A stretch of 64,000 bases of DNA from Sphingomonas rosea. GTDB taxonomy: Bacteria > Pseudomonadota > Alphaproteobacteria > Sphingomonadales > Sphingomonadaceae. Under the pieces are notes generated by a model. The model saw only the letters and a list, made by a program, of their open reading frames with translations. It searched no databases and had not been told where the DNA came from. Both the position numbers and the translations under genes were made by a program. The DNA is taken from the NCBI RefSeq assembly GCF_039538065.1, contig NZ_BAABBR010000001.1, positions 1,836,501-1,900,500 of the forward strand, read 5' to 3'. This document shows, one piece after another, positions 18,616 through 35,686 of the stretch; position 1 is the first letter of the stretch, and the number at the start of each line of letters is the position of its first letter.

Positions 18616-21600
18616 ATGCCTTTGAAGATCGTGGCCGGTGCGGCCAGCGCGGACGACGTTTTTCGGATCAGCGAGGACGCTGCCGGTTCGACTCTCGTCT
18701 TCGATGTCAGGGCAAATGACGGGAAGAATGCTTCCCGGCCGCTCTATTCGCTCGACGACGGCCAACCAGCCGACCTTGCGACGGGGGACCCGGTCGGCGG
18801 CGCCATTCCCGACAGAAGCGCGCTCGGCGCTGCCATCGGGATCAATTCGAACGGCACCGTCAGCTACTCGGCCGGCGCGCTGCAGGCGCGGATCGATGCG
18901 CTCGCGCCTGGTGAGACGCTCGAGGACAGCTTCGTCTACGCGGTGCTCAGCGCATCGAACCAGCTCACCTGGCAGACGGTGAAGGTGCGCATCATCGGAA
19001 CCAACGATGCGCCGGTGGCGGTCGCGGATCGGGCGGCGGTGAACGAAGGCAGCCTGGTCAGCGGCAACGTCGGACTGAACGACCGCGACGTCGACAATGG
19101 CGCGGTGCTGAGCTTCGTGCCGACCGGCCAGCTCGTCCCCGGTTTCCAGATGGGCAGCAACGGGGCCTGGACCTTCGACGCGAGCAACGCTGCCTATGAC
19201 AGCCTGGCGGCCGGCGAGACCAAGCTCGTCACGGTCGATTACCGGGTGACCGACCAATATGGCGCGAGCGCGGTCTCGACCCTGCAGATCGTGGTGACAG
19301 GGACCAACGACGCGCCGAAGGCGGGCATCGCGACCAGCCCGTGGCCCGTCGATGAGGGGCAGGTCATCACCGGCAACCTCTACGGCGTCGATCCCGACCG
19401 CAGTGACACCCTCACCTTCAGCGCTGCGGGCGAGCTGCCTGCGGGCTTCACCCTCGGCGCCGACGGCAATTGCCGGTTCGACGCGGGCGATCCCGCCTAC
19501 GACCATCTCGCTGCTGGCGACACACAGAGCGTGACCATCGCTTATCTGGTGCGCGATCCAAGCGGGGCGACGGCGTTCGGAAGCATGCTCTTCACGGTCC
19601 GCGGTACGAACGACGCGCCTGTGCTCGAGGCGGGCTCGGCGAGCTTCGCCGAGGACAGCCAGGCGAGCGGCCGGCTGGTCGCGCGCGATGCCGACCAAGG
19701 CGCGGTGCTGACCTATGCGCTGGTCGGTGAGGCCCCGGCGGGGTTCGCGCTGGCGGCAGACGGGAGCTGGACCTTCGACGCGTCGCATCCCGCTTATCAG
19801 GGACTGGCCGAGGGCGAGACGCGAACCCTGCTCGCCGCGACACGGGTGACCGACGAGCAGGGGGCGTCGAGCGATTCGACCCTTGCCCTCACGGTCACGG
19901 GGACAAATGACGCACCCGTGCTCGACGCGCAGGCGGCGAGCCTGTTCGAGGACAGCCAGGCAAGCGGGCGGCTGATCGCAAGCGACCCGGATGGGGGCGC
20001 ATTGCTTTCCTTTGCGCTGACAGGCGAGGCGCCCGCAGGCTTTGCGCTGGCGGCGGACGGGAGCTGGACTTTCGATGGCGGCAACGCTGCTTACCAGGGC
20101 CTCGGCTATTTCGAGAGCATGACCCTGACGGTTCCGACGCGGGTCACCGATGAGCGTGGTGCGTCGAGCGATTCCGTGCTCACCATCACCCTTTTCGGGG
20201 CAAATGATGCGCCGGTGCTCGGCGCGGTCACGGTCACGGTCGGCGAAGATCAGTTCAGTTCGGGCCAGCTGATCGCGACCGATTCCGACACAAACGCGCA
20301 GCTCTTCTATTCGGTCGTCGGCGAAGCGCCGGAGGGGCTTACCCTGTACGGCGACGGGAGCTGGTATTTCACACCCACGGCCACCCTCCAAGGGCTGGGC
20401 GATGGCGAGAGCGTGGCTTTCTCCGTCCGCACGCTGGTGCGCGACGACGTCGGTGCGAGCAGTGAGGCGACGTTCGATCTCACCGTGGTCGGGAGCAACG
20501 ACGCGCCGACGCTTCGCGTGGGATCATCGAGCCTGCTCGAGGACCAGGTCGCGACCGGCAAGCTCGCGGGCAGCGATCCCGACACGGGCGCGGTGCTTAC
20601 CTATTCGGTGGTGGGGCCGCCGATCACTGGCTTCACTCTAGCCCAAGACGGGACGTGGACCTTCGACACGCGGGGGCAGGATTTCCAGTTCCTCACCGAG
20701 GGGCAGCGCGAGAGCATCACCGTCACCACCCGCGTGACCGACGAACATGGCGCGTCGAGCGACTCCCACTTCGTCCTTGCGGTGACCGGCATCAATGACG
20801 CGCCGGCGCCCCAATCCTATCCCTTCACCCAGTCGGTGAGCGAGGACGGGCGGGTCTCGGGACAGCTTCCGAGCTTCGACCCCGACGAGCGGGTCGGCGT
20901 GGTCTTCTCGGTGGTGGGTGCGGTGCCCGACGGCTTCGCCCTGTCGACGGGCGGGGAATGGAGTTTTGCGCCCGGCGCCAGCTTCCAGTCGCTGCACAAT
21001 GGGCAGAGCCAGTCGGTGCAGGTCACCTACAAGGTGACCGACAGCCTTGGCGCGAGCGGGACCGCGACCATCGACTTCCTCGTCCAGGGCGCCAATGACG
21101 CGCCGGTGACGGCACCACTGTCGGCGATCGTGTCGGAAGACGAGGTCAGGACCGGCCAGATTACCGCGACCGATGCCGATGCTGGCGACAGTCTCACCTA
21201 CAGCCTCGCAGGCACCGCCCCGCAAGGCATTGCGCTGACCTCGAGCGGCCAGTTGAGCTTCAACGGAGCGGACCCCTACTGGCAGGCGCTCGGAGCCGGC
21301 GAGACGGTCAGGCTCGACATCGGATATGCCGTGCGCGACCTTGGCGGAGCGAGCACCAACGGGATCGTCTCGCTCACGATCGTCGGCAGCAATGACGCGG
21401 CGATCATCACCGGCACCACGAGCGGCACCGTGGTCGAACGGAGCGTTCATGGCGGCGGCACTCCGCTCGCGAGCGGCCAGCTCCAGGCCAATGACATCGA
21501 CAACGCCGGCGGATTCGCCTTCCAGAACGCGGCAATAAGCCAATATGGATACGGCCGTTTCTCCATCACGTCGGCGGGCAGCTGGGAGTATTCGCTCGAC

Positions 21601-22464
21601 GACGCCAATCCGGCTGTGAACGGCCTCAACTACGGACAGACGCTGACGGACTATTTCACGGTCAGGAGCATCGACGGAACGAGCCAGCTCATCAGCATCA
21701 CGATCAAGGGCGCTGTAGACAGCTTCCGTGGGCCCGACTGGTACGTCCTCGGCGGCGATCCCAACGATTTCGACGCTCCCGTCCCCGGCGGCAGCAGCGC
21801 AGCCACAATATACGGGACCGATGGCTCGGAGACGCTGATCGGGGACGCCTCGAGTCAGTCGATCTACAGTTTCAAGGGAGACGACATCGTCTGGGGCGGC
21901 GCCGGCAACGACAAGCTGTACGGCATGGGCGGCAATGACGTCATGTACGGTCAGGCCGGCGACGACTGGGTATTCGCTGACGGATGGGGCGTGAACCGCG
22001 TCTATGGCGGCAGCGGTGCAGACGAGGTACGCGGCGGCGGCGGGAACGACTTTCTCTTCGGAGGCAGCAGCGGATACGCGACGGATTCGCTCAATGGCTT
22101 TGAAGGCGATGACGTCCTCGTCGGCGGATATGGCATCGACAACCTGATCGGCGGGGCAGGGCGCGACACGTTCCGTTTCCTCGATGTGCGAGACACCGGG
22201 GACGTGATCCTCGACTACCAGGAAGGCGAGGACATCCTCGACTTCGTGGCAATCGACGCGAATAGAAATCAGGCCGGTGATCAGGCATTCGGCTGGGCCG
22301 GCAACACGCCGACTGCCTATTCGCTCTGGGCCTATACCGTGAACGGCAAGACGGTCATCTACGGCGACACCGACGGCAATCCGGCGACGGGCGAGTTCGA
22401 GGTCAGCCTGCAGAACATCGTCTGGGCTTCCAGTCCGACCCAGCCGGCGGGCTGGCTGATGTGA
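18616..22464 (+). CDS. Large VCBS-repeat / RTX adhesin, probable type I secretion substrate
   Basis: A 1282-residue acidic protein. Residues about 126-925 are roughly nine tandem domains of about 100 residues, each joined by a motif such as TGTNDAPV and containing WTFD and VTDxxGASS patterns, as in VCBS/cadherin-like repeats of BapA-type adhesins. Residues about 1069-1190 carry calcium-binding RTX nonapeptides (GGAGNDKLYGMGGNDVMYG and similar), followed by a C-terminal region with DVILDYQEGEDILDF, typical of type I secretion substrates. There is no Sec signal peptide. The ATG at 18616 has a good AAGGGGGA site; an upstream in-frame TTG does not. No dedicated ABC transporter/HlyD pair lies in the window. 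Confidence 0.88.
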   Translation: MPLKIVAGAASADDVFRISEDAAGSTLVFDVRANDGKNASRPLYSLDDGQPADLATGDPVGGAIPDRSALGAAIGINSNGTVSYSAGALQARIDALAPGETLEDSFVYAVLSASNQLTWQTVKVRIIGTNDAPVAVADRAAVNEGSLVSGNVGLNDRDVDNGAVLSFVPTGQLVPGFQMGSNGAWTFDASNAAYDSLAAGETKLVTVDYRVTDQYGASAVSTLQIVVTGTNDAPKAGIATSPWPVDEGQVITGNLYGVDPDRSDTLTFSAAGELPAGFTLGADGNCRFDAGDPAYDHLAAGDTQSVTIAYLVRDPSGATAFGSMLFTVRGTNDAPVLEAGSASFAEDSQASGRLVARDADQGAVLTYALVGEAPAGFALAADGSWTFDASHPAYQGLAEGETRTLLAATRVTDEQGASSDSTLALTVTGTNDAPVLDAQAASLFEDSQASGRLIASDPDGGALLSFALTGEAPAGFALAADGSWTFDGGNAAYQGLGYFESMTLTVPTRVTDERGASSDSVLTITLFGANDAPVLGAVTVTVGEDQFSSGQLIATDSDTNAQLFYSVVGEAPEGLTLYGDGSWYFTPTATLQGLGDGESVAFSVRTLVRDDVGASSEATFDLTVVGSNDAPTLRVGSSSLLEDQVATGKLAGSDPDTGAVLTYSVVGPPITGFTLAQDGTWTFDTRGQDFQFLTEGQRESITVTTRVTDEHGASSDSHFVLAVTGINDAPAPQSYPFTQSVSEDGRVSGQLPSFDPDERVGVVFSVVGAVPDGFALSTGGEWSFAPGASFQSLHNGQSQSVQVTYKVTDSLGASGTATIDFLVQGANDAPVTAPLSAIVSEDEVRTGQITATDADAGDSLTYSLAGTAPQGIALTSSGQLSFNGADPYWQALGAGETVRLDIGYAVRDLGGASTNGIVSLTIVGSNDAAIITGTTSGTVVERSVHGGGTPLASGQLQANDIDNAGGFAFQNAAISQYGYGRFSITSAGSWEYSLDDANPAVNGLNYGQTLTDYFTVRSIDGTSQLISITIKGAVDSFRGPDWYVLGGDPNDFDAPVPGGSSAATIYGTDGSETLIGDASSQSIYSFKGDDIVWGGAGNDKLYGMGGNDVMYGQAGDDWVFADGWGVNRVYGGSGADEVRGGGGNDFLFGGSSGYATDSLNGFEGDDVLVGGYGIDNLIGGAGRDTFRFLDVRDTGDVILDYQEGEDILDFVAIDANRNQAGDQAFGWAGNTPTAYSLWAYTVNGKTVIYGDTDGNPATGEFEVSLQNIVWASSPTQPAGWLM
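18990..21400 (+). repeat. VCBS repeat array within the adhesin
   Basis: About nine in-frame units of roughly 280-300 nt, bounded by codons for [TRFVQ]G[TASI]NDAP. Units three and four (about 19630-19915 and 19930-20215) are close copies even at DNA level: both encode EDSQASGRL, GEAPAGFALAADGSWTFD and RVTDExGASSDS, which suggests a recent internal duplication. Confidence 0.8.
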
Positions 22465-22667: not shown

Positions 22668-25016
22668 TCATTGCACCTTTGCCCGGAAGCGGATGCTGAA
22701 GGTGCCGTTGGTGTTGAGCCGGTTCTTGAGCTTGACGCGGAAGAAGGTGACGGCCGGATCGATGCCGTCCGTATTGGCGGTCGGGACATAATTCCAGTCG
22801 GCGGCGCCCGGGGCGGCCGCGGTGGTGAACTCGAGGTCGTCGGCCGTGCTCGAGAGCGCCAGGTAGCTGTAGGTGAGTCCGCTCGCCGTGGCGCCGTCGA
22901 CGAAGGCCACGGGGCCACTGCCGGCGGTGCCGAAGTCGCCGACGATCATCCTGGTGTTGGCGGGAATGGCGTCGCTCAGGACGATGCTGTCCTTGTCGGT
23001 CGCCTGGCCGCTCGGGTTGGCGACGGTGATCGTATAGGTGACGATCGCGCCCGGGATGTTCTTGGGATTGGTGAAGAGATTGACCGGATCCCAATAGACT
23101 TCGCCTGCCTTGCTGGCGGTGAGCGGCGCAAGGACTTTGAGTGTGGCCGACGCGGCGCCGATCGAGGAAACGGTCTGGGTGCCGTAGGCGACGGTGAGCC
23201 CGCCTGCGGGGATGGTGTTGATTGCATCGCCCGCGACCTTGCCGACGACATCGGCGGCGACAGTGCAGGTCGAGGCCGCGGCCAGGCTACCGCCGCTCAG
23301 CGCCAAGGACGGTCCGTTCGCTGCCGCAGTCACGCTTCCGCCGCATGCGGTTGCGGGATTGGGGACTGCGGCATTGGCGATGCTGGCGGGATAGGTGTCA
23401 GTGAAGGCAACCGCGGTCATGGCGAGCGTGGGATTGCGGTTCTGGAACGTGACGGTCAGCCGCGAGACCTGGCCGATCCCGACTGGCGAGACCGAAAAGG
23501 CTTTGCTGATCACCGGCGTGCATTCGGCGCCCGAGGACATGCCGGGAATGGCGGAGGTGACGATGGTCGCGCCCGCGCCGCCGTTGCCGCCGAGCGCGCC
23601 ATAGGAACTGCCGAACGAGCCGCCATTGACCGTCGTGCCGGCGCTTCCGCCCGCAACATTGGCACTCAGCGCGAAGCTGCTCGCGACGAAGCCGCCGCCA
23701 CCGCCGCCACCGGGACCGTGCGCCGCGCCGCCGCCGGTGTTGGAGCCGCCGTTGCCGCCGCTGGCGTCGATCGTGACGCTCGCACCCGTTGCATCGAGCG
23801 CACTGAAGAGGACGCTTCCGCCCGCGCCGCCGCCGCCGCTCGAATCGTTGAGGACGCTATTATTGGCGCTCGCGCCCGACGCGTTGATCGTACCCGCGCC
23901 GCGCAGCTTGTCGGCGCGGACGATGACGATGCCGCCGCCGTCGGCCCCGCTCGAGGCGAAGCCATTGGCGGGCGTCCCGGTGGCGTTGTTGGTGGTGCCC
24001 GCGCCGCCGCCGCCACCCATGATGAGGCGATTGACCGCGAGGCTGGTCACGCCACGGCCGCCGAGCCCGCCGGTCTGGGGGCAGCCGACCGGCTGGGTGC
24101 TGCACCAGGCGTAGCCACCGAGGCCGCCACCGCCATAGCCCGCGCCGCCGCCGCCGCCGGTGTTCTGGTCGTTGGCGGCGGGATTGCCGTCGGTGCCGCC
24201 GCCGCCACCCGTCGCCGGCGCGCCGCGCCCGTAGCTGCCATTGGCGTAGCCTTCGACCCCGGTGTCGAGCAGCGCGCCATTGTCGTTCAGGAAGCGCGGG
24301 GTCCCGGCGATGCCCTCGCCCTTGCTTGCGTTGAGCGTGGCCGAGGCGAGGGTGCGATAGTCGGTGTTGGTCCCGGTGCCGCCGGCAAGCGCGCGCCCGG
24401 CGCCGCCGCGAAAGCCGAGGCCGCTGACCGAGATCGTCCCGCCGTTGAGGTTGAGCGTGCCCGCGACATCGAGCGCGACGACTCCGCCGCTGGTTCCGTT
24501 CCACTCGGTCGCGGTCACCGTCCCGCCTAATGTCAGGTCGGCATATTGCGGCACCCTGACGACCTGGAAGCGACGCTGCCCGGCGGTCGCGAAGGCGGCG
24601 TTGGTATAGGCATAAGCTAGGCCTGCGCCCGTTCCGCCCGCGATCGTCAGCGTCCCACCGGTGAGCGGGACGGCCGAGGCGGCGCGGACGAATTCGAAGC
24701 GGCCGCTATTGTTGAGTGTGGTCGTGCCGTAGGTCGTCGTATTGGTGGTATCGATGGCCGCGTCCTGCATCTGGATCACGAGCAAGAGGTCACCGACCGC
24801 GATCGGCGTCGCCGCTCCGGTCGCGGCGCCGAGCGACAGGCTGGTGGCGCCGGCAGCGGCCGAGGCGGTGCCGGGATAATAAGTGTTCACGATCCCCGAC
24901 AGGCCCGTCACCGAACCCGCCCGCGACGGCGTCGCGCAATTGTTGGCGGTCGCCGCCTGCGCCAGGAACAGCCCGAGGATTGCCACGAGCCAATGCAGGG
25001 GATGAAGGCGGATCAC
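22668..25016 (-). CDS. Secreted glycine-rich DUF11-like protein
   Basis: A 782-residue exported protein: GTG start one base after the preceding gene's stop, good GAGGAG site, and a signal peptide (HWLVAILGLFLAQAATA, cleaved before NNCAT). Residues about 240-450 are extremely glycine-rich with Asn/Ser/Thr (runs such as GGGGGAGYGGGGLGG), likely a beta-helical or extended region. The C-terminal third has Ig-like DUF11-type segments (VTYTITVANPSG, IVLSDAIPANTRM). The last residues, IRFRAKVQ, form a terminal beta-strand shared with the other small proteins of this operon. Last gene of the operon. Function unknown; likely surface structure or matrix. Confidence 0.75.
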   Translation of the reverse strand: MIRLHPLHWLVAILGLFLAQAATANNCATPSRAGSVTGLSGIVNTYYPGTASAAAGATSLSLGAATGAATPIAVGDLLLVIQMQDAAIDTTNTTTYGTTTLNNSGRFEFVRAASAVPLTGGTLTIAGGTGAGLAYAYTNAAFATAGQRRFQVVRVPQYADLTLGGTVTATEWNGTSGGVVALDVAGTLNLNGGTISVSGLGFRGGAGRALAGGTGTNTDYRTLASATLNASKGEGIAGTPRFLNDNGALLDTGVEGYANGSYGRGAPATGGGGGTDGNPAANDQNTGGGGGAGYGGGGLGGYAWCSTQPVGCPQTGGLGGRGVTSLAVNRLIMGGGGGAGTTNNATGTPANGFASSGADGGGIVIVRADKLRGAGTINASGASANNSVLNDSSGGGGAGGSVLFSALDATGASVTIDASGGNGGSNTGGGAAHGPGGGGGGGFVASSFALSANVAGGSAGTTVNGGSFGSSYGALGGNGGAGATIVTSAIPGMSSGAECTPVISKAFSVSPVGIGQVSRLTVTFQNRNPTLAMTAVAFTDTYPASIANAAVPNPATACGGSVTAAANGPSLALSGGSLAAASTCTVAADVVGKVAGDAINTIPAGGLTVAYGTQTVSSIGAASATLKVLAPLTASKAGEVYWDPVNLFTNPKNIPGAIVTYTITVANPSGQATDKDSIVLSDAIPANTRMIVGDFGTAGSGPVAFVDGATASGLTYSYLALSSTADDLEFTTAAAPGAADWNYVPTANTDGIDPAVTFFRVKLKNRLNTNGTFSIRFRAKVQ

Positions 25017-25017
25017 G

Positions 25018-28000
25018 TCACTGGCTCCTCGCCCGGCCGAACAAGGCGGCGGGCGTATCCTGGTCGAACTTGAAGCGCAGCGTCACGTAAGGACCGGCGC
25101 GGGTGTAGCGGGCGTCCGAGAAGTCGCGGTCACGGAAACCCTTGATGTTGTAGCCGAGGCTGATCCAGCTGTTGCGGATCGGGGAGATCCCCACCGACGG
25201 CCCGAGCAGATAATCGATCGTGCCGGTCGAAGAGACGTGGCGGACCGCGGCGTTGAGGCTGAGGTCGAGGCGGTCGCTGAGGTCATGGCGCGCCTCGAGG
25301 CCGAGCATGTTGCTGAAGCCGGCGTAATCGTCCGCCCCGAAGGTATCGAAGACGTATTTCGCGCCCCAGTAGAAGGAAAGTTGATCGCGCTCATAAGCCT
25401 TTTCGGCAGTGTCGCGGTCGTCGATCCCGGCGGCGCCGACGAGATTGACCGCGAGATTGTTGACGATCCGGCGGGTGCGGGCGTTGCCGACCACCGCGAT
25501 CCCGTCGAAGCCGAGCAAACCGTCGGTCGTGCCGCGACCGTTGGCGACCTCGTCCCAGCGCAGCTCGAGCTTGTCGAGGACGGCCCAGCGCGACCACAGC
25601 GGACGCCAGGCGAAGGCGCCATTGGCGATGCCGAGCGTGGCGACGCTGCCATCGGCGTTGCCGATGCGGCTGAAGCGGGCGGCGGCGGCCATGCTGATCC
25701 CGTCGCGGGTCTGGCGGAGGAGCGCGGTCGACACGGCGATGCGATCGTCGAGGTCGCCGCGGCGATATTCAGCGCGGCCGGTCCAGCTCAGAACGGACGA
25801 GCGATAGGTCGCGCCCGTGCTGACCGCCCAGAAGTCGTCGCTGATCGTCTTGCTCGAATCGAGGTAGCCGCCGGCCGCCACCGGATGGTTGATGTTGACG
25901 ATCTGCGCCGGGTCGATCTGGCCCTTGAGCGTGCGGCTGCCGTCGACCGAGAGGTCCACGCTCCAGCGGGGGCTGAGCGTCAGCGACTGGCTGATCCCAT
26001 AAAGTGCGTAGGTGCGGCCCCCGAACTCGGCCATCGCCTGCTGGTTGACCGTGGTCGCGAGGCGCAGGCCGCGCCAGGGGGCGGCCTCGATACCGAGGCT
26101 GGTGGTTGCGGTGTCCACCTTTGCGCCATCGGTGATCTCATGGCTCGCGAGCAGCCGGACGTCGGGGCGCAGGGCCCAGGACAGGCCGACCCGGTAGCGA
26201 TTGGGAAAATCGAGGCTTTCACCCTTGCCGCCAATGCCGATCGCCGCGTCGGCATCGAGCTGGAGTCGGTTGTCGAACAGTTGCTGCGAGCCGCCGACGG
26301 TGGCCTGCTGGCTGATCAGCGTTTCGCCCGAGGGCACGTGGTCGCGGGCAAACTGATAGCCGGCGCGGAGCGAAGTGCGCGGTCCGCGATAGTCGACCTG
26401 CGTGCGGAGCGCATCGCGGCTCGCGCCGGTCGCGAGCATGTCCTCGTGCCAGCCGCCGACCGTCAACGAGAGGCCTTGCGAGCGACCGAGGCGAACGTCG
26501 GCACCATATTTACGGGTGCCGCTTTCGGCACGGTTGAGCTGGCCGACGCCGAAACCCAAGTCCTGCTGGCGGAAGTAGGCGAGCGCATCGACGGTCTCGC
26601 CGCGATGCTCGACCTCGAGGAGATAGGCCTGGCCCTGGCTCTTCTCGCCACCAGTGTCGGTGCGGCTTGCGGCGATTTCGCCGCGCACTTCGGTGGCCTC
26701 GCCGATCCGCACCCGCGCATCGAGGGCCGCAAGGTCGCTCTTCTGCGCTGGATCGGCATCGCGGATGAGGGTCGCGCCGATCTGGGCGCGGCCGCCGGCG
26801 AGGCGGGTCACGGCGCGAAGGCCGCCGTTCCAGCGCCGCGTGCCGTCGCCGCGGGTTTCATATTCCGCCACGATGAAGACGGGATTGCCCTGGGGATCGC
26901 GGCTGGTGACCGGCTGGCGGAAGTCGATGCTGCCGGCTTCGTAGCTGATGTCGTAGTCGGCGTGACGCGTGAGCTCACGGGCCGACAAGATGATGTTCGA
27001 GCGCAGGCGGTCGCGCACCTCGATCCGCACCTTGTCCGAATTGATCACGATGTCGGTCCGGCTCAGCCGGTACAGCGAGGCGAGACCCGACCCCTGGATT
27101 TCGTCGCGGGCGAAGCGGAAGCCGGTGTCGGCGGCGAAGGCCTGCACCGCGACCTTGTCCGAGCGATACTCGCTCTTGAGGCCGGTCAGGCTGCGGCTGT
27201 AGCGGCCGAGCTGGGTGTCGTTGAAGCCCGTCTCTAGGTCACCGAACAGCGCGTAGAATTGCGGGCGCTCGAGACGGAGATAGACCTTGCGGGCGCTGGC
27301 GGCGTCATAGGCCTGCTCGGTGCCGTCGGCATAAAGGTCGTAGTAGCGCTGCGGATCGATCACGCCGCCAAGAGGACGGCGAGCGTCGCGGCCGGTCTTC
27401 TTGTCACTGTCATAGGCCATGGTCAGCAGCCACTTGCCGAGGATTCGGCCCTTGGCGAAGAAGGCGATCTGGCCGTCGGTGAAGCGCTTGGCCGAATCCT
27501 TGCCGCCGAGCCGCTCCTGGTGATCGTCGAGGACGTTGAAGCCGGCAGTGCCGGCCGCGAACCCGACCACCACCCACGGCTGATCGCCGGGCGCCATCCA
27601 GCCGCGGACGATCTCGCGCACCTGGCGCCGCTCGACCTGGTGGGTGAAGGCAAGTTCGATCGACCCGGCCTGGGTCGTCGGCGCGAGTTCCACGAGCGCG
27701 ATGCCGTCCTCGGTGGAGACCTGCCAGGTGGGCGGTGCGCGATCGGCGCCCGACAGCTGACGGGCCTGCTGGAGGTCGAGGTCGCTCGCCACGCGGTAGG
27801 GCGCGGTCAGCTGGAAGGTGCCGGTGACGCCCTGGCGGACGGGCTTGCCGGCGCGGTCGGTAAGGCGGATCGCGACGACCGGGCGGGTTCGGCCATCCGC
27901 CACCAGCCGCGAGCGGGCGGGAACCAGTTCGGCATGCGCCACGGCATTGGCATAATGAAGCGTGCGCACGAACTTCTCGAGCAGCGCCCCGCCTGCGCCG

Positions 28001-30102
28001 CGGACCTCGACCTCGAGGCGGTTGTCGCCCTCGCCCAAGGGGAGGCCCTGATATTGCGTGACGAGGAAGCTCTTATCCGCGCTCGCCTGGCTGGTGTCGA
28101 GGTTGATGTCCGGCACCGCGGCGCCGTTGAGGCGGAGACGGAGGCTGGTGTCGGCGAGATGCTTCACGACGACGCGCACGGCCGGCGAGGAGGGATTGAA
28201 GCCGTCACCCGGGAAGAGGAGGGCATTGCCCGCCTGCTGGCCTGCGAACCAGTCGGTGGCAGGGGCGGCCGGCTTGTCCGCGGCGAGCACGGGCGCGGCC
28301 TTGGCGGCGAGTGGCTTGGCCGTGCCGGTGCGGCGCAGGTGGAAGTTGGTGCGCCAGAGCGTCCCGCCGCGAACCTCGACGAATTGCGAGATCGCGCTCC
28401 CGCCGTGACGGGTGTCGCGGAGGCACTGCACGGCTTCGAAGCCCTCGGGCAGGCTGGCGACGTCGAGCTGGACGACGTGGGTGCCCGGACGGACACCTTC
28501 GAAATGGAACAGGCCTTCGCGGTCGGACAGGACGTAGGAGCCGTCCTCCATGAGGATGCGAACGCCGGGCACGCCGGCCATCCTGGTCTCCGGCGCATCG
28601 CAGCCGCCGTCGAACACACGCCCGATCAGCGTCGCGGCGTCGCTCATCAGGAAGGGACGGATGGCGACAAGCGCGCGTGCTTCGTTGCTCGCGGCGACAC
28701 CGTTGGCGTTGGCGACGACCTTGTTGACCGCGTCGCCGGTGCGGGCCGCGCTGGTCACCTGGACGACGTAGGTCACCGTCAGGCTGGAGCGCGCCGTGAC
28801 CTTGCCGATCCCGAGGCGGAAGCCGCTGCCCGAGGGATCGACGACGGGATCGGACACCGTACGCCCATCGATACGCATCGAGCCTGCCTTGTAGCGTAGC
28901 CCCTCGCTCATGCTGTCGAGGAGCACGGTGGCGTTCATCGCCGCCAGCGCGTTGTTGTTCTCGACCGTCACACGATATTCGATGAAGTCACCGGCGCTCG
29001 CCTCGCTTACCGACGCGCTCTTGCGGACCAGCAGGGGGAGCTGGCGCGGGTCGAGCGGCACGTCGATGCGGAGCAGCGCGGCGCCATTGACGAGGAAGGG
29101 GAGGAGGAAGCTGCCCTGCGGGTCGATCTGGAACGCGCCCGCGGGCCCGCTGAGCTGGCGCAATTGGTCGGCCGGCACCTGGCTCGCGCCCGAGTAGCCG
29201 GCCGGGGGCACGACGTTCAGCCGGTAATTGCCGGGCGCGACGACCGGAAAGCGGAAGCCACCGCTCGGCAGGGCATAGCTGCGGCCGGCCGAATCGGTGA
29301 CGGTTGCGCCGCTCACGACGGTGGCCGGGAAACGGCTCTTGCCGTCATCGCCGAAAACGAGGGCAGGCTGGCCGGTCGCAAGGTCGATCAGCGTGATCTC
29401 GGCCCCGTCGATCAGCGCGCCCGTCTGGCTGTCGAACACGAACTGGATCGGGTCGGCGATGATCGAGGTCGTCGACCGGTCGGACGGATAGGCTGTGTCG
29501 GTGTAGGAGGCCTGCAGCGCGGCGCCGATCCCGACCGAGAGGATGCAATTATATGCGACGGCCGAAGGCGGGACGCCGGCGGTCTCGATCTCGGCGGCGA
29601 AGAGGCCGGTGTTCGGTCCGGTCTCGATCAGGCGGAGGAGTTCCTCGTCGCCGCTGCTGCTGGTGACGGCGACTTCGACCAGCTCCCGGACGGCCGGGTC
29701 GGTGTTGCGATTGGCATCGCTGACGGTGACGATGATCGCCTCGCCGGCGTGGACAGCGCTGGTTTCGATCGCGTTGGCGCGTTGCTCGCCAGCGCCTGCG
29801 GCGCGCGCCGGCGCGCTGGCGGCAAAGGAGCCGTTGGCGCCGCGGCACTGCCCGCCGTCGGTCGCGATCGGGATTCCGCCGGTGGTGGTCGAGCGCATGA
29901 AGGTGACCGTCGAGGGCGACGGCGGAAGCAGGCGGTCGGCGACGACGATGTTCGAATAATAGGTCTGACGGGTCCCGCCGAGCTGCAGCGACAGGCTGGC
30001 GCGGTTCTCGATCGGGCCGGCCTCGGCGCGCCCGGCCACGCCGAACTGAACCGCCACAAGGGCGATCAGGGTAGCGAGGAAAAGGCGGGCGAAGCGGGTC
30101 AT
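25018..30102 (-). CDS. Giant outer-membrane protein: DUF11 and SdrD-B-like domains plus C-terminal barrel
   Basis: A 1694-residue protein with signal peptide MTRFARLFLATLIALVAVQF..AEA. In order: N-terminal beta-rich region; a DUF11-like domain around residues 370-490 (FIEYRVTVENNNALAAMNATV); an SdrD B-like carboxypeptidase-regulatory fold about 500-580 (GVPGVRILMEDGSYVLSDREG); invasin/Ig-like segments about 660-860; then some 800 residues of amphipathic strands with ERPQFYALFGDLETGF and DTQLGRYSRSLTGLKSEYR, ending near YVTLRFKFDQ, as expected of an outer-membrane barrel. The start was placed at the ATG that begins the signal peptide; an upstream in-frame ATG lacks one. Overlapping order with the next gene (1-nt gap) suggests coupling. 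Possible anchor or export pore for its operon partners (inference). Confidence 0.75.
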   Translation of the reverse strand: MTRFARLFLATLIALVAVQFGVAGRAEAGPIENRASLSLQLGGTRQTYYSNIVVADRLLPPSPSTVTFMRSTTTGGIPIATDGGQCRGANGSFAASAPARAAGAGEQRANAIETSAVHAGEAIIVTVSDANRNTDPAVRELVEVAVTSSSGDEELLRLIETGPNTGLFAAEIETAGVPPSAVAYNCILSVGIGAALQASYTDTAYPSDRSTTSIIADPIQFVFDSQTGALIDGAEITLIDLATGQPALVFGDDGKSRFPATVVSGATVTDSAGRSYALPSGGFRFPVVAPGNYRLNVVPPAGYSGASQVPADQLRQLSGPAGAFQIDPQGSFLLPFLVNGAALLRIDVPLDPRQLPLLVRKSASVSEASAGDFIEYRVTVENNNALAAMNATVLLDSMSEGLRYKAGSMRIDGRTVSDPVVDPSGSGFRLGIGKVTARSSLTVTYVVQVTSAARTGDAVNKVVANANGVAASNEARALVAIRPFLMSDAATLIGRVFDGGCDAPETRMAGVPGVRILMEDGSYVLSDREGLFHFEGVRPGTHVVQLDVASLPEGFEAVQCLRDTRHGGSAISQFVEVRGGTLWRTNFHLRRTGTAKPLAAKAAPVLAADKPAAPATDWFAGQQAGNALLFPGDGFNPSSPAVRVVVKHLADTSLRLRLNGAAVPDINLDTSQASADKSFLVTQYQGLPLGEGDNRLEVEVRGAGGALLEKFVRTLHYANAVAHAELVPARSRLVADGRTRPVVAIRLTDRAGKPVRQGVTGTFQLTAPYRVASDLDLQQARQLSGADRAPPTWQVSTEDGIALVELAPTTQAGSIELAFTHQVERRQVREIVRGWMAPGDQPWVVVGFAAGTAGFNVLDDHQERLGGKDSAKRFTDGQIAFFAKGRILGKWLLTMAYDSDKKTGRDARRPLGGVIDPQRYYDLYADGTEQAYDAASARKVYLRLERPQFYALFGDLETGFNDTQLGRYSRSLTGLKSEYRSDKVAVQAFAADTGFRFARDEIQGSGLASLYRLSRTDIVINSDKVRIEVRDRLRSNIILSARELTRHADYDISYEAGSIDFRQPVTSRDPQGNPVFIVAEYETRGDGTRRWNGGLRAVTRLAGGRAQIGATLIRDADPAQKSDLAALDARVRIGEATEVRGEIAASRTDTGGEKSQGQAYLLEVEHRGETVDALAYFRQQDLGFGVGQLNRAESGTRKYGADVRLGRSQGLSLTVGGWHEDMLATGASRDALRTQVDYRGPRTSLRAGYQFARDHVPSGETLISQQATVGGSQQLFDNRLQLDADAAIGIGGKGESLDFPNRYRVGLSWALRPDVRLLASHEITDGAKVDTATTSLGIEAAPWRGLRLATTVNQQAMAEFGGRTYALYGISQSLTLSPRWSVDLSVDGSRTLKGQIDPAQIVNINHPVAAGGYLDSSKTISDDFWAVSTGATYRSSVLSWTGRAEYRRGDLDDRIAVSTALLRQTRDGISMAAAARFSRIGNADGSVATLGIANGAFAWRPLWSRWAVLDKLELRWDEVANGRGTTDGLLGFDGIAVVGNARTRRIVNNLAVNLVGAAGIDDRDTAEKAYERDQLSFYWGAKYVFDTFGADDYAGFSNMLGLEARHDLSDRLDLSLNAAVRHVSSTGTIDYLLGPSVGISPIRNSWISLGYNIKGFRDRDFSDARYTRAGPYVTLRFKFDQDTPAALFGRARSQ

Positions 30103-30132
30103 CGGGTTCCGGTCGGGGGAGGAAGGGAAGGA

Positions 30133-30198
30133 CCGCCGGATGCCGGTCAGGAGCGGCATCCGGCGGCTTTCGCCCCGCCTGCGGGCGGCGGGGCGAAA
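30133..30198 (-). terminator. Two tandem strong hairpins between operon genes
   Basis: Just after the stop of the 359-residue gene, read on the - strand, come TTTCGCCCCGCC / GGCGGGGCGAAA (12-bp perfect stem, 7-nt loop; 30168-30198) and CCGCCGGATGCCG / CGGCATCCGGCGG (13-bp perfect stem, 8-nt loop; 30133-30166), followed by a pyrimidine-rich stretch. They probably act as partial terminator or 3'-end stabiliser, raising the upstream genes over the giant barrel gene. Confidence 0.75.
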
Positions 30199-30202
30199 CG
30201 GC

Positions 30203-31282
30203 TTAGTTGATGGTCACGCGGAAGCGGATCGCCGACGAGGCGCCGCCGCTGATCGTGCCGAGGTTCGAGGTGACGGTGTTGGAGCCGAAGTTGCTCTGGT
30301 CGCCGTCGACCGCGTCGGTCTGGAGCGTGCCGTCGGCATTGCAGGTCCCGCTCGACACCGTAACGCCGGTGTAGATCGAGTTGGGCTGGTAGGTGACGCC
30401 GGTCACGCTTGCGAGGCTGTCGCTGATGATCGCGTTGTTGGCCGCGCCGGCACCGGTGTTGGTGGCGACAATGCAATATTCGACGGTCGCACCCGGGATC
30501 CGCTTCGGGTTGGTGGTGCCGTTGAACGGATCCGAGATGATCTTGCTGCTCTTCACCAGTGCGAGTGTCGGCGCGATCACCTTGTAGGTGTCGTCGGCCG
30601 AGAACTTGCCGTCGCGCAGCGCATCGGTCTTGCCGGCGGTGTCGGCGAAGACGATGTCGATCGCCGCCGGATTGTCGGCGCCGACGGTCTGGACCAGCGC
30701 GCTGCCCTGGGTTCCGGTGGTGCCGCCCGCGGCCGCCGTGGCGGTGAGGACGACGCCGGCGAGGCTTGCGTCGGCCTGGCCGGCAGGCGTGTCGGAGACA
30801 ATGAACACGGTGCGGGTCGCGTCGGCGGCGAGCTCGTCGATGTAGGTCGCGACGTCGACGCCGGCGTCGTAGATACCGTTGTTGTTGCTGTCGACGAAGA
30901 TGCGGACATTGGTCTGGTCGAAGCTGTCAGTCCCGCCGAAGGCGACCGTCTGGCCGCTGGTCAGCTGCGCCGCGCTCAGCGCGAAGTCGAGCGTCGCGTT
31001 CGAGGTGTTAGTGACGGTGAAGGTCGTCACGAAATTGCTTCCGCCCGGCGAGGTCGGCGTGACGAGGCCGCCGACTTCGGCGACGGTCAGGTTGACCTTC
31101 TGGTCGACCTTGAAGGTCGCGGTGTTCGAGAGGACGTTCGCCTGGGTGACGCCGCCGGTGGCGTAGCCGATGGTGGCGGTGTTGTTGACGTCGGTGCCGG
31201 CCGGCGTCGGCGCCGCCACGGCCGAGGTCGCGATCGACAGGGCCGAAGCCGTGCCGAGCGCGAAGTACAATGCCTTCTTCAT
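30203..31282 (-). CDS. Secreted DUF11-like protein (359 aa)
   Basis: A 359-residue exported protein with a clear signal peptide (MKKALYFALGTASALSIATSAVAA). The mature protein begins TPAGTDVNNTATIGY, nearly the same opening as the 333-residue operon partner (TPAGTDIVNVAQLRW), so the two are paralogues. An N-terminal beta domain carries a calcium-site-like DSNNNGIYDAGVD segment; the C-terminal domain is DUF11-like (PGATVEYCIVATNTGAGAANN) and contains two cysteines. It ends in the strand IRFRVTIN. Strong hairpins follow its stop, so it may be an abundant product. Role unknown; possible surface-layer or filament subunit. Confidence 0.75.
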   Translation of the reverse strand: MKKALYFALGTASALSIATSAVAAPTPAGTDVNNTATIGYATGGVTQANVLSNTATFKVDQKVNLTVAEVGGLVTPTSPGGSNFVTTFTVTNTSNATLDFALSAAQLTSGQTVAFGGTDSFDQTNVRIFVDSNNNGIYDAGVDVATYIDELAADATRTVFIVSDTPAGQADASLAGVVLTATAAAGGTTGTQGSALVQTVGADNPAAIDIVFADTAGKTDALRDGKFSADDTYKVIAPTLALVKSSKIISDPFNGTTNPKRIPGATVEYCIVATNTGAGAANNAIISDSLASVTGVTYQPNSIYTGVTVSSGTCNADGTLQTDAVDGDQSNFGSNTVTSNLGTISGGASSAIRFRVTIN

Positions 31283-31342
31283 GATGATCTTACCCTGCTA
31301 GTAGTTGGTGAGGTTGAGGATTTGGCCGGAAGGGGATGGGGG

Positions 31343-31363
31343 AGCCGGTCCGGCGAACCGGCT
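31343..31363 (-). terminator. Hairpin at the end of the 151-aa gene
   Basis: A 7-bp inverted repeat, AGCCGGT / ACCGGCT, with a 7-nt loop starts within the stop codon of the 151-residue gene on the - strand. It is weaker than the pair after the next gene and is probably an mRNA processing or attenuation element. Confidence 0.4.
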
Positions 31364-31817
31364 ATTTGAGGCGCGCCTTGAAGCGGACGTGCCCGCCCGA
31401 TCCCGGAGCGATCGCGGCGAGGTTCCAGCGCAGGTGGGTGACGTCCTTCGGCTCGGCCGCGCGCTGCGTGCCGTCGGCCGCGGTGACCTTGAGGGCACCG
31501 AGCGCGGCGAAGGTCTTGCCGCCGTCGACCGAGACGAGCGCGTTCTCGCCCGAGACATATTCGAGCGTCGCCGGCACGGGATTGGTGAGGACCACCTGCT
31601 CGGCGGGCTTGGCGCCCTTGTTGGCGAAGGCGAGGTCGTAAACGACTTCCTGGCCGGGAACGATCGTACCGGCCGGGACCAGCGCGACGTGCTTCACGCC
31701 GGCTTCCTCGACGACCTTCTCCTGCATGACGGCGGCCGTGAGCGTGACGCCCTGGGCGAGGGCCGAGCCTGCGAGAAGGCTACTGGCGGCGATGGAAAAA
31801 AGTAGCTTATTCAACAT
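31362..31817 (-). CDS. Small secreted DUF11-like protein (151 aa)
   Basis: A 151-residue exported protein: signal peptide MLNKLLFSIAASSLLAGSALA, then a single Ig-like domain (PGQEVVYDLAFANKGAKPAEQ, NPVPATLEYVSG) equivalent to the C-terminal half of its larger operon partners. No cysteine. It ends in HVRFKARLK, the shared terminal strand. It is 18 nt after the 333-residue gene and 79 nt before the 359-residue gene. Family-level similarity is to DUF11-type repeats; the function is unknown. Confidence 0.75.
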   Translation of the reverse strand: MLNKLLFSIAASSLLAGSALAQGVTLTAAVMQEKVVEEAGVKHVALVPAGTIVPGQEVVYDLAFANKGAKPAEQVVLTNPVPATLEYVSGENALVSVDGGKTFAALGALKVTAADGTQRAAEPKDVTHLRWNLAAIAPGSGGHVRFKARLK

Positions 31818-31835
31818 GGTACAACTCTCCTGAGC

Positions 31836-32837
31836 TTAGTTGTTCACACGCACTTGGAAGGACACGACGGCGTTTGCGCCGCGCGAGAGGGCGCCGATCG
31901 CGACGCGAACGCCCGCGGCCCCCGCCTGTCCGGCATCGCCATCGGCGGCGTCGGTCATGGTGGTGCCGTTGAGTTTGAGGGAGCCGGGGACGTAGCTCGT
32001 CCCGGCGGGGATCGGATCCTCGATCAGCCCGCCGCTGGTCGCGACCGCGCCTTCGTAGGAGGCGGTCAGCGTGTAGGTGATGACGGCGCCGGGAAGCGCC
32101 GAAGCGCCGCCGTTGGCGTCGACGATCTTCTGCGTCTTGGCGAGCTGCGGAACGGCGAGGCTGGCGACGAAACTGCCCTGGCTGACCGCGGTCGCGGTGG
32201 TCGCGCCGACGACCGCATCGGTGCCTTGTTCGCCGCGCCCGACGAAGACAGTGCCGGGCGCGCCGTTTCCGGTGACCGCGCTCGCGCGCAGGGAGGCGAG
32301 GCCGATGGCAGCATCCGGCAGGCCCGCAGGCGCGTTGCCTAGCACAAAGACCGTGACGCTTCCGTCAGCCTGGAGGAGGGGGTCGTCGGTGCCGGCCCGG
32401 TAGGTGCGGTCGAGGTCGGGGTCGAACAGGCCATTGCCGTTACTGTCGATCGCGATTCCGGCGATGGCCGGGTCCCACTGGTCGCCGCCGATCGTGCCGA
32501 GCGCGGTGAGGGCGAAGGCTTCGGGTGCATTGCCGGCATTGACGACACGGAAGGTCAGCACGCGATTGCTATCGCCGGGCGCGACCGGAACGCTGCCGCT
32601 GTCGAGCCACGAGATGGCGACGTCGATCCGCTCGTCGACCTTGAGCGAGGCCGCATTCGACTGGATGGTGCGCTCTTGGCTTCCGTCGAGCCAGCGCAGT
32701 TGCGCGACGTTGACGATGTCGGTGCCGGCGGGCGTTCCGTGGGCATGGGCGGACGAGAGCGGCGCGCAGAGGGCGAGCGACAGCGCTGCCGCCGCCTGCC
32801 TTCCGGTCCGTCCCGTCACCTGCCCGATCATGCCCAC
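31836..32837 (-). CDS. Secreted DUF11-like protein (333 aa), first gene of the operon
   Basis: A 333-residue exported protein with an unusual, long basic N-terminus and signal peptide (AAAALSLALCAPLSSAHA). The start could also be the ATG two codons in. Mature domains parallel the 359-residue paralogue: opening TPAGTDIVN, a DSNGNGLFDPDLD segment like a calcium loop, then a DUF11-like domain (PGAVITYTLTASYEG, EDPIPAGTSYVPGSL) and the terminal strand VSFQVRVNN. It leads the five-gene - strand operon. Probably exported by Sec to periplasm or surface; function unknown. Confidence 0.75.
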   Translation of the reverse strand: MGMIGQVTGRTGRQAAAALSLALCAPLSSAHAHGTPAGTDIVNVAQLRWLDGSQERTIQSNAASLKVDERIDVAISWLDSGSVPVAPGDSNRVLTFRVVNAGNAPEAFALTALGTIGGDQWDPAIAGIAIDSNGNGLFDPDLDRTYRAGTDDPLLQADGSVTVFVLGNAPAGLPDAAIGLASLRASAVTGNGAPGTVFVGRGEQGTDAVVGATTATAVSQGSFVASLAVPQLAKTQKIVDANGGASALPGAVITYTLTASYEGAVATSGGLIEDPIPAGTSYVPGSLKLNGTTMTDAADGDAGQAGAAGVRVAIGALSRGANAVVSFQVRVNN

Positions 32838-33135: not shown

Positions 33136-33312
33136 ATGGTTTTCGAAATCTATCTGGACACCGACGAGCGCTATCGCTGGCACCTGCGCAATCGCAAGGG
33201 CCAAGTGATCGCCGTGGCAGCCGAAGGGTATGTCGAACTGGATGAGGCGATGCGGTCGCTGGTCGAGGTGCGCGACAGCGACCGGGCCGAGATCCGTCAT
33301 CCGGCGCGCTAG
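33136..33312 (+). CDS. Small DUF1508 (YegP-like) protein
   Basis: A 58-residue protein starting ATG GTT TTC GAA. The pattern FEIYLDTDERYRWHLRNRKG followed by VIAVAAEGY matches a single DUF1508 unit as in YegP, where the motif is F-E-I-Y-x-D-x(2)-x-[FY]-R-W-x-L-x(2)-x-N-G and an EGY. Function of the family is not established. Its TAG stop shares CTAG (33309-33312) with the convergent receiver gene. Confidence 0.75.
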   Translation: MVFEIYLDTDERYRWHLRNRKGQVIAVAAEGYVELDEAMRSLVEVRDSDRAEIRHPAR

Positions 33313-33689
33313 GCGCGGTCCAGCAGCTTTCGGACCTGGTCGGCGAGCGTCAACGGATCGAAGGGTTTGGCGATGACGTCGAGCGCGCCCACGTCCTTCA
33401 GCGCCTTGATGCGGTCGGGCATCAGGCTGGCGGTCATGAAGATCGCGGGAATGGCGGCCGTTCGCGGGTCGGCGCGAAGCTTTCCGAGCAATTCCTCGCC
33501 GGTCATGTCCGGCAGTCGATAATCGAGGAGGTAAAGGTCGGGCAGCGGGCCGTCCCGGTCGGTCAGGAGCTCCGGGCCTGAGCCAAAGTGGCGCACCGCG
33601 AAGCCGCCCATCTCCACGAGGGCGATCTGGGCAAGGGTCGCGATGTCGGGATCGTCTTCGACGAGTGCGATGGAAACAGGCGTCGTCAT
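33309..33689 (-). CDS. Single-domain response regulator (CheY-like)
   Basis: A 126-residue receiver domain with no output domain. The acidic pocket is E11-D12-D13, the phospho-acceptor is D56 (LLDYRLPD), the conserved threonine is T86 and the lysine is K108 (AKPFD). It overlaps the upstream histidine kinase by 4 nt (ATGA), so the kinase is its likely phosphodonor. In a phosphorelay it would pass the phosphate to the Hpt protein encoded two genes upstream. Confidence 0.93.
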   Translation of the reverse strand: MTTPVSIALVEDDPDIATLAQIALVEMGGFAVRHFGSGPELLTDRDGPLPDLYLLDYRLPDMTGEELLGKLRADPRTAAIPAIFMTASLMPDRIKALKDVGALDVIAKPFDPLTLADQVRKLLDRA

Positions 33690-35245
33690 GATTCAGGCAG
33701 TTCGATCCAGAAACACGAGCCGCCGCCATCGCGCGGCTCGTAGCCAATCCGTCCCCCATGCTGCTCGACGATCGCGCGGCTGATCGCAAGCCCGAGCCCG
33801 GTACCCCCATGGCCGCGCCGATCGGCATCGACGGCTTGCGAGAAGCGCTCGAAGAGCCGGTTGACGAACCCCGACGGAACGCCCGACCCCCGATCGCGCA
33901 CCTCGACCCTCACGAACTGCCCCTTGCGCAGCCCGACGACCTCGACTTCCGATCCGGCCGGGCTGTGGCGGGCGGCGTTGGAGATGAGGTTGGTCAGCAC
34001 CTGGAGCAGGCGGCCAGGATCACCGCGGAGTGAAGGCGTCCCTTCGACCCGGCCTACAAGCGTGACGTCGAGACCTTCGGCGAAGGGTTCGTTCTGCTGC
34101 ACCGCATCGGCAATGACCTCGTCGAGCCGCAGCGGCACGAGCAGGTAGCCAGTCTGGCCGCGGGTCAGCCGTTCGACGTCGAGGATGTCATCGATAAGGC
34201 TGTTGAGCCGGGCCGAATTCTTCTGTGCCATGGCAAGCATCTGCTTGCTGCGATTGTCGAGGTCGCTCGGCAACGTCGCGCCGAGCAGCGCAATCGACCC
34301 TCGGATCGCAGTCAGCGGCGTGCGCAATTCGTGGCTAACCGTGGAGATGAACTCGTCCTTCGCGCGGCTGGCGGCCCGCTCGGCGGTGAGGTCGCGAACC
34401 GCGACGATGAAGCCCTGCTCTTCGTCGAGCTTCAGGCGGATCGAGTGCAGCGTCCGGCCCTCGCGCGTTTCCACGATCTGTTCGGTGCGCGGCGTGGTGC
34501 GGATGATCTCGAGCATCTTCGGCACCGCGCGTTCGGTGACGTCGGGCCCGAACATTCCCCAACGGGCGGCCGTCCGGAGCATGTCGCCGGCGTCGAGCCC
34601 CTTGCGCTTCAGCTCGTCACCGAAGCCATGCAGCTCGAAGAAGCGATCGTTCCACTTGGTCAGCTTCAGGTCGCGGTCGAAATAGGCGATCCCCTGGTCG
34701 ACACTGTCGAGCATGACCCCGAATAGCCGTGTCTGGCGCTCAAGCTCGAGCTCGCGTTGCTCGGCGACAAAGGTCGCCAGGCGCGTTTCGATGAGGTTGG
34801 CCGCGGTGGTCGAGAGCTGCTCGAGGAGGCGCCGATCGGTCTCGGTGAACGAGCGAGGTTCGTGGTCGATGACGCAGAGCGATCCCACGGCCACTCCACC
34901 AATGGTGATCGGCGCGCCGGCATAGAAGCGAATGAAGGGCGGGCCGGTAACCAGCTCGTTGTCGACGAACCGCGGATCGAGGCGTGTGTCCTCGACGACC
35001 ATGACATCTGGCTGCCGGACCGTATGGCCGCAAAAGGCGCTTTCGCGGCTCGAGCCATCGCTGTCGAGCCCGCAGGCACCCTGGAAGATCTGCCGGTCAC
35101 GACGGAGGATGGTCAGCAATGCGATCGGCACGCCGAAGATGGTGGCAACCGTCTGGCTGAGCTGGTTGAAGGCTTCTTCGTCACTCTCACCCAGCCGGTA
35201 GCGTGCGATCACTCGCTGGCGGAGTGCTTCCTCGGCATCGCTCAT
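33686..35245 (-). CDS. GAF-PAS sensor histidine kinase
   Basis: A 519-residue soluble sensor kinase without membrane segments. Residues about 20-165 are a GAF domain (FGVPIALLTILRRDRQ, SAFCGHTV), about 175-290 a PAS domain (YFDRDLKLTKWNDRFFELHG), then HisKA with H305 in STVSHELRTP and a HATPase domain ending in GTGLGLAISRAIVEQHGG. The longer open frame starts upstream, but the ATG at 35245 overlaps the Hpt gene stop (ATGA) and has an AGAGG site. The ligand of the GAF domain is unknown; it lacks an obvious phytochrome cysteine. Confidence 0.92.
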   Translation of the reverse strand: MSDAEEALRQRVIARYRLGESDEEAFNQLSQTVATIFGVPIALLTILRRDRQIFQGACGLDSDGSSRESAFCGHTVRQPDVMVVEDTRLDPRFVDNELVTGPPFIRFYAGAPITIGGVAVGSLCVIDHEPRSFTETDRRLLEQLSTTAANLIETRLATFVAEQRELELERQTRLFGVMLDSVDQGIAYFDRDLKLTKWNDRFFELHGFGDELKRKGLDAGDMLRTAARWGMFGPDVTERAVPKMLEIIRTTPRTEQIVETREGRTLHSIRLKLDEEQGFIVAVRDLTAERAASRAKDEFISTVSHELRTPLTAIRGSIALLGATLPSDLDNRSKQMLAMAQKNSARLNSLIDDILDVERLTRGQTGYLLVPLRLDEVIADAVQQNEPFAEGLDVTLVGRVEGTPSLRGDPGRLLQVLTNLISNAARHSPAGSEVEVVGLRKGQFVRVEVRDRGSGVPSGFVNRLFERFSQAVDADRRGHGGTGLGLAISRAIVEQHGGRIGYEPRDGGGSCFWIELPES

Positions 35246-35526
35246 ACCTCTAGAATTCGGAGCGCGTTCGCGAGTTTGTGGGTCGCCTGCCCGATACGGC
35301 CGGCGGGCGTTTCGCACGCCTGCTCGAGCTCCCGTGCCAGCGCGGCCGCTTCGTGGAAGCCGAAGCTGCCGAGCGTTCCGGCAAGGCGATGGCCGCAGAG
35401 CCGAAGCGCGTCATGATCGCTGGCCGGCGCGCACATCAGCCAGTCGGCGGTCTCCTGCATCCGCGCGATGCAGTCGTGCTTCGCTTTCGCCAAGCGGAAC
35501 TGGAGGGTGGGGCTCGCATCCATCAC
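35242..35526 (-). CDS. Histidine phosphotransfer (Hpt) domain protein
   Basis: A 94-residue all-helical protein. The phospho-accepting histidine is H46 in LCGHRLAGTLGSFGF, matching the Hpt pattern H-[RK]-L-K-G-x(2)-x-x-[FLA]-G. It is the first gene of an Hpt-kinase-receiver operon, each pair overlapping by 4 nt. It probably moves phosphate from the small receiver to the divergent OmpR-type regulator. A second ATG one codon later is an equal start candidate. Confidence 0.88.
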   Translation of the reverse strand: MMDASPTLQFRLAKAKHDCIARMQETADWLMCAPASDHDALRLCGHRLAGTLGSFGFHEAAALARELEQACETPAGRIGQATHKLANALRILEV

Positions 35527-35686
35527 CGCGCTCTAGCGTGGTGAATCCTTCGTAAAAGTTATCGTCGAAATGGATTATTCGATGTGTTCGCCAGGCCACA
35601 CCTCGCTATGTCACGCGCCTTGGCGCGTCGACCGACATGAAAAGTCCTTCCGCCGCCGTTATGGAGCAAACAGGGAGGACGCTCGG

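Follow-up and report, generated by a model that had tools for sequence, protein, structure and literature searches.

What do small secreted proteins of one repeat family do when they are encoded beside a giant outer-membrane barrel? This question is raised by a 64,000 nt stretch of Sphingomonas rosea DNA (termed the window; bases 1836501-1900500 of a single-contig genome of 2.68 Mb). Specifically, five minus-strand open reading frames (ORFs) of 333, 151, 359, 1694 and 782 codons follow one another from position 32837 to position 22668, just as a first-pass annotation of the window had listed them. These genes are labeled A, B, C, D and E in the order of their transcription; gene D comprises 1713 codons if started at an upstream ATG. 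The answer proposed here, which we hold at about even confidence, is that the products of A through D, joined optionally by E, build a fibre or short stalk of the envelope by strand complementation.

The annotation had also assigned signal peptides and DUF11-like domains to all five products. Sec-type signal peptides are indeed recognizable by eye on each of them. All five proteins exceed the 24-bit cut-off of TIGR01451, a model of DUF11-type repeats (A 38.4, B 34.6, C 26.4, D 37.3 and E 28.0 bits), and by this measure the domain assignment stands, most weakly for C. In contrast, only B and D pass the whole-protein cut-off of Pfam DUF11; E is over the cut-off for DUF7933, a relative of DUF11. 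Of the calcium-loop-like motifs (D-x-N-G) that had been noted in A and C, the one in A is conserved and the one in C is weaker. Among named organisms, Sphingomonas glaciei and S. humi have the closest relatives of protein A (77% and 75% identity, respectively). In public records relatives are named ‘DUF11 domain-containing’, ‘hypothetical’, ‘beta strand repeat-containing’, ‘uncharacterized’ or ‘conserved repeat’ protein, and one relative is named ‘trimeric autotransporter adhesin’. PADLOC returned no match, and sequence searches of the PDB gave nothing useful.

A gene cassette around a large barrel

A sample of 196 genomes from the order yielded a near full-length D in 43 and partial matches alone in four more. 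For a closer view we chose 46 loci with D, comprising six named records and 40 stretches (L060 among them duplicates L011). Four of the 43 genomes (G127, G161, G194 and G208) and a second copy in G177 lie outside this fetched set. Genes A and C adjoin D at all 46 loci and B does so at 43, and wherever all four genes are present (43/43) they are arranged A-B-C-D on one strand. An E homologue accompanies D at 11 of the 46 loci. A large neighbour with a similar end was flagged at 21 of 45 loci, although two of these were judged unrelated. When two lists covering the 196 genomes were compared, B proved to be present in 43/43 genomes with a near full-length D versus 16/153 of the others.

Similar arrangements exist outside the order. 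A profile of the D barrel matched 58 of 398 genomes in a sample of the phylum, a count that includes members of the order and short relatives. At 10 of 12 fetched loci with long D homologues from beyond the order, B-like and A/C-like genes adjoin the barrel gene, and the other two loci are cut by contig ends. In a further alphaproteobacterium (L165), D is accompanied by B and one A/C-like gene. On a plasmid of Acinetobacter haemolyticus, several DUF11 genes, a D-like gene and a gene for a 978-aa protein that ends similarly are present, and a Novosphingobium plasmid carries D and C. Thus, A-B-C-D form a conserved cassette to which E is an optional addition, with versions in other Pseudomonadota. 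The five genes had been described as one unit, which is accurate for the window; the conserved core is A-C-D, with B nearly always present. The conserved co-occurrence that the annotation had made a test of its reading was found for A through D within the order and also beyond it.

Within the cassette, A and B often overlap by 4 bases, and a gap of about 56-90 bp separates B from C in many of loci L043-L082. B is also found as a solitary gene and seems to have an independent existence. Within its own genus the D barrel occurs in only 3 of 37 genomes searched, though base composition reveals by eye no sharp island border.

Open C-terminal domains and an N-terminal hairpin

The four non-barrel proteins had been noted to share a terminal β-strand, through which they might dock onto one another or onto the barrel. 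We described this end by a single regular expression, a terminal strand with one to three residues behind it, which was written after the ends had been seen. It matches every relative of A (45/45), B (43/43), C (45/45) and E (11/11) and none of D (0/45) when the duplicate locus is excluded. The common strand is therefore far above the control frequency of 38/510, a figure taken from other ORFs of at least 250 aa at loci L043-L082; many of these control ORFs do not represent genuine genes. Matches to the Pfam DUF11 model, which has a length of 114, end at position 85 in A, 74 in B and 67 in C. The shared last strand of A, B, C and E is the final core strand of a DUF11 domain that stops early.

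At the other end of A, C and D, directly after the signal peptide, lies a common motif of the form AGt-x-I-x-N-t-A-x-a-x-y ... SN-t-v ... V, predicted to form a hairpin. The TPAGTD opening that had been noticed in A and C is present, as one part of this longer motif that the D family has too. Profiles of the three families match one another with hhalign probabilities of 95-98%. Furthermore, a hidden Markov model (HMM) built from two families finds the hairpin of the third in 46/46 A, 18/46 C and 33/46 D proteins, and a joint hairpin HMM finds it in none of 44 B and none of 12 E proteins. It is likewise absent from 24 E-like proteins, a set that overlaps the E set and includes one cut N-terminus and one uncertain start. 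Beyond the order, 12 of 19 A/C-like proteins score above 3 bits with the hairpin HMM, and the other seven look alike by eye. The hairpin lies at the N-terminus of 4/10 D-like proteins and internally in one; B-like proteins have no N-terminal hairpin (0/10) and a single internal match of 3.1 bits. Judged by these profiles, the hairpins of A, C and D are homologous. One record with two hairpins (P0155) looks broken or misassembled and was not used.

Hairpin and open end occur together in A and C, whereas B and E have just the open end and D just the hairpin. Such a set reads as the parts list of a linear chain running from a tip to a base in the membrane.

What might the hairpin complete? In many independent DUF11 domains, inspection by eye finds a tail after the last core strand with the pattern G-x-x-x-N-T-a-x ... 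a-x-l-x-V. The N-terminal motif of A, C and D resembles this tail, which is missing from the C-termini of A, B, C and E. We retain the idea only on the basis of the motif, the extension of Pfam alignments and a structure model. Against a tail model made from 13 independent DUF11 tails, manually anchored on their Asn, the family means exceed all 100 shuffle means (A, 6.3 versus at most 2.9; C, 5.9 versus 3.6; D, 1.75 versus 1.52), the sequences within each family being related and not independent. Appending a hairpin raises the Pfam DUF11 score of B from 31.4 to 38.9 bits (35.9 with one shuffle), and A rises from 25.2 to 31.9 with its own hairpin. Overall the gains are 2.9 to 7.5 bits, compared with 2.1 and 4.5 for shuffles, which were made for A and B only. 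With the A or C hairpin the alignment reaches positions 111-112 of the Pfam model, with the D hairpin on C it reaches 97, and with two shuffles 97 and 104. Only one clear natural fusion with a hairpin directly behind a DUF11 end is present in the set, at residue 349 of the barrel protein of L124.

The structure model was computed for a read-through chain of one relative (L078), consisting of the C terminal domain (119 residues), a linker and the D hairpin. Its acceptance criterion was fixed before the result. Mean predicted local distance difference test (pLDDT) values for successive blocks are 81-97 in the C domain and 41-58 in the linker. Strands are present in the hairpin (residues 161-200), where the block means are 59, 84, 87 and 69. 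Among the 50 rows listed by VIA-align, 45 span more than the 119 residues of C, and all 50 ranges end at residue 196 or beyond. The model indicates that the D hairpin would pack with the C terminal domain as part of a single fold. In the same model residues 109-118, the final strand of C, form a high-confidence strand (block means 97 and 95) of C's own domain, which speaks against docking through the last strand as the annotation had supposed. The hairpin of A, C and D appears a better candidate for the mobile element. What survives of the earlier reading is the conserved co-occurrence and, from the parts list, the possibility that subunits dock on each other and on the barrel protein.

These data bear also on the possibility that A and C complete themselves, the hairpin folding onto the protein's own first Ig domain or own DUF11 domain, and that the proteins are independent secreted or periplasmic factors sharing an operon. 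A's own hairpin raised the A DUF11 score more than that of C did (31.9 versus 28.1), and the only modelled pair is C-D, full-length A and C lying outside the model. However, self-complementation does not predict a D protein with a hairpin and no C-terminal DUF11, nor B and E proteins with an open end and no hairpin, and strict gene order and co-occurrence also argue against it. We consider it unlikely.

The proposed fibre and its alternatives

In the fibre that we envisage, the N-terminal hairpin of each subunit would complete the C-terminal DUF11 domain of the preceding subunit. A and C would be the links of the chain. E, with a large N-terminal domain and an open end only, would be the tip, and D, with a hairpin and a C-terminal barrel, would form the outer-membrane base. 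B, which has just the open end and also occurs alone, may be an adaptor, a cap or a helper. Usher-like export through the D barrel is a guess, as is a role in adhesion or envelope structure.

Several observations weigh against this arrangement. Single hairpin sequences rank weakly against the 13 tails (medians 0.065, 0.125 and 0.225), and the C hairpin adds 2.9 bits to A, compared with 2.1 bits for its sole shuffle. In profile comparisons the hairpins do not score above shuffled controls against either the internal DUF11 tail of D or 118 internal DUF11 tails of the Variovorax type. The leave-one-family-out HMM fails on 28/46 C and 13/46 D proteins, including the D of the window itself, and beyond the order the hairpin HMM fails on 7/19 A/C-like and 6/10 D-like N-termini. 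Nine loci with a solitary B were inspected (L156-L164), seven in genomes that lack D and two in genomes that encode D elsewhere, and at all nine the surrounding 9 kb or so are free of A, C or D matches; a bare DUF11 end therefore need not imply a chain partner. Finally, the C-D model described is the best of five, the others averaging 4-7 pLDDT points lower. Both ends of its hairpin fall below pLDDT 70, and it had no negative control, its coordinates were not inspected and the chain offered the hairpin no other packing partner.

Of the claim that D is a giant outer-membrane barrel, prediction supports a large β-barrel. An AlphaFold2 model of D residues 495-1694 (44 rows) has a mean pLDDT of 78 and a predicted template modelling (TM) score of 0.76. 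Strands at least eight residues long number 31 between model residue 580 and the end, and further strands precede residue 580. The usher barrel fold has 24 strands. With Foldseek, the first match is the outer-membrane protein SlpA (8ae1; E-value 2.4e-10, TM-score 0.19-0.23), a Deinococcus S-layer protein, and the third is an S-layer complex (7zgx). From these matches one could imagine that D anchors a sheath or a two-dimensional layer on the surface in place of a linear fibre. We regard this as very unlikely, since the TM-scores are low, generic barrels score nearly as high, and two complementary ends per subunit together with separate end pieces better suit a chain. The comparison likewise does not single out ushers. 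SprA structures are also among the matches, and the pairing of a large barrel gene with genes for proteins that have a C-terminal β-sandwich in common recalls type 9 secretion, with SprA and its C-terminal-domain cargo. D might be a pore for export, with the DUF11 at the C-terminus of A, B, C and E acting as a secretion signal as in type 9 cargo and the proteins being released or attached singly. However, TIGR04183, the Por-secretion C-terminal domain, has no match in the genome (the control was positive) or in the five proteins, other type 9 components not having been searched for, and no type 9 family is among the matches of the five proteins. Moreover, such a scheme leaves the family-wide hairpin unexplained, and B also occurs without D. 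This alternative seems quite unlikely to us; a search with PF14349 (SprA_N) was silent in all controls and is uninformative.

How does the proposed fibre compare with known ones? One parallel is with chaperone-usher pili (FimD/PapC with donor-strand pilins), but here a two-strand hairpin would act as donor and a DUF11 domain as acceptor, and the barrel protein D would itself bear a donor. D has no match to Pfam Usher (PF00577) at E ≤ 1, and no PapD-like chaperone is found among the five proteins. The sole usher match of the genome is ORF C1:282950-284419 in an 824-codon frame, about 1.6 Mb away. PapD-like matches lie beside it (C1:285265-285618) and at C1:1323905-1324228, about 0.5 Mb off, both outside the window. 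Region C1:282950-285618 is a true chaperone-usher locus of the same genome.

Subunits of the archaeal thread filament Saci_0406 are reported to be joined head to tail by an N-terminal donor, and the study assigns no chaperone or usher to the gene cluster (PMC9715654). These are the likenesses to the arrangement proposed here, the thread having no outer membrane or barrel. TasA/TapA of Bacillus subtilis also form a fibre by strand complementation (PMC10151520), and in that respect they resemble the proposed fibre. Two further papers were set aside as precedents: one on type 11 secretion cargo concerns DUF1194 and merely mentions DUF11, and a preprint combining DUF11 with a donor strand (PMC11952670) treats spore appendages. 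The literature search covered open-access papers by title and beginning of abstract, with subscription papers and bioRxiv outside its scope; none of the matches listed concerns this gene set, and no open-access paper was found for TIGR01451.

Tentatively, and with some doubt, we suggest that the cassette represents an undescribed class of Gram-negative surface fibre, found in several groups of Pseudomonadota and on some plasmids. It would be built from split DUF11 domains with hairpin-less tips and a barrel that serves as anchor, last donor and perhaps export pore, with no dedicated chaperone of a known family. If true, many proteins now named ‘DUF11 domain-containing’ or ‘TIGR01451 repeat’ would gain a common function. 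A testable rule would follow, whereby a hairpin plus an open end marks a chain link, an open end alone a tip and a hairpin on a barrel the base. Gram-negative bacteria would have a further way of making strand-complemented fibres, one that apparently dispenses with the classical families of chaperone and usher, and this would raise the question of how the subunits stay apart in the periplasm.

Layout and surroundings of the locus

Coordinates of the genes and their parts are collected in Table 1. The N-terminal part of E (residues 36-445) matches the AgmC gliding protein model NF047640 with 147.6 bits (E-value 5e-43), below the equivalog cut-off of 275.

Table 1. Genes A-E and their features, numbered from the first base of the window
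Feature	Positions	Strand	Evidence
Gene A, 333 aa: signal peptide, N-terminal hairpin, Ig-like domain with D-x-N-G loop, truncated C-terminal DUF11	31836..32837	-	
A, putative N-terminal hairpin motif, residues 33-72	32622..32741	-	HMM of C and D families, E-value 2.2e-7; hhalign 98% with D and C motifs
A, C-terminal DUF11, last strand VSFQVRVNN	31839..32156	-	Pfam DUF11 positions 12-85 of 114; end pattern in 45/45 relatives
Gene B, 151 aa: one DUF11 domain, without N-terminal hairpin	31362..31817	-	
Gene C, 359 aa: layout as in A	30203..31282	-	
C, putative N-terminal hairpin motif, residues 25-66	31085..31210	-	HMM E-value 7.2e-7 in window protein
C, C-terminal DUF11-like domain, end IRFRVTIN	30206..30580	-	TIGR01451, end pattern; fold modelled for relative L078
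Gene D, 1694 aa: N-terminal hairpin, Ig/DUF11/SdrD-like domains, large predicted C-terminal β-barrel	25018..30102	-	
D, putative N-terminal hairpin, residues 28-60, degenerate here	29923..30021	-	Read from alignment to relatives; other-family HMM missed it
D, internal complete DUF11 module including own tail (internal reference)	28633..29034	-	
D, predicted β-barrel region, model residues about 344-1200	25021..27591	-	
Gene E, 782 aa: AgmC-like N-terminal half, C-terminal DUF7933 and truncated DUF11, without hairpin; optional, candidate tip	22668..25016	-	

Shorter relatives of the barrel (L125-L129; open frames mostly of about 1100-1480 aa) share the most conserved segment of D, around residues 840-1190, and in public plasmids they are often annotated as TonB-dependent receptors. 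At the five loci fetched none of them is adjoined, as D is, by separate small genes of the A, B or C kind, though larger neighbouring ORFs at two of these show weak B or C matches.

Directly upstream of the cassette (33309-36382) lies a compact phosphorelay set in which a receiver (response regulator) and a GAF/PAS histidine kinase are encoded together with an Hpt protein and a regulator of the OmpR type. On the downstream side, a gene at 18595-22464 runs towards the cassette on the opposite strand and encodes a 1289-aa cadherin-like surface protein with RTX repeats. A second DUF11 protein, with two matches in a 509-codon frame, is encoded far from the cassette at the extreme end of the contig (C1:2674788-2675501).

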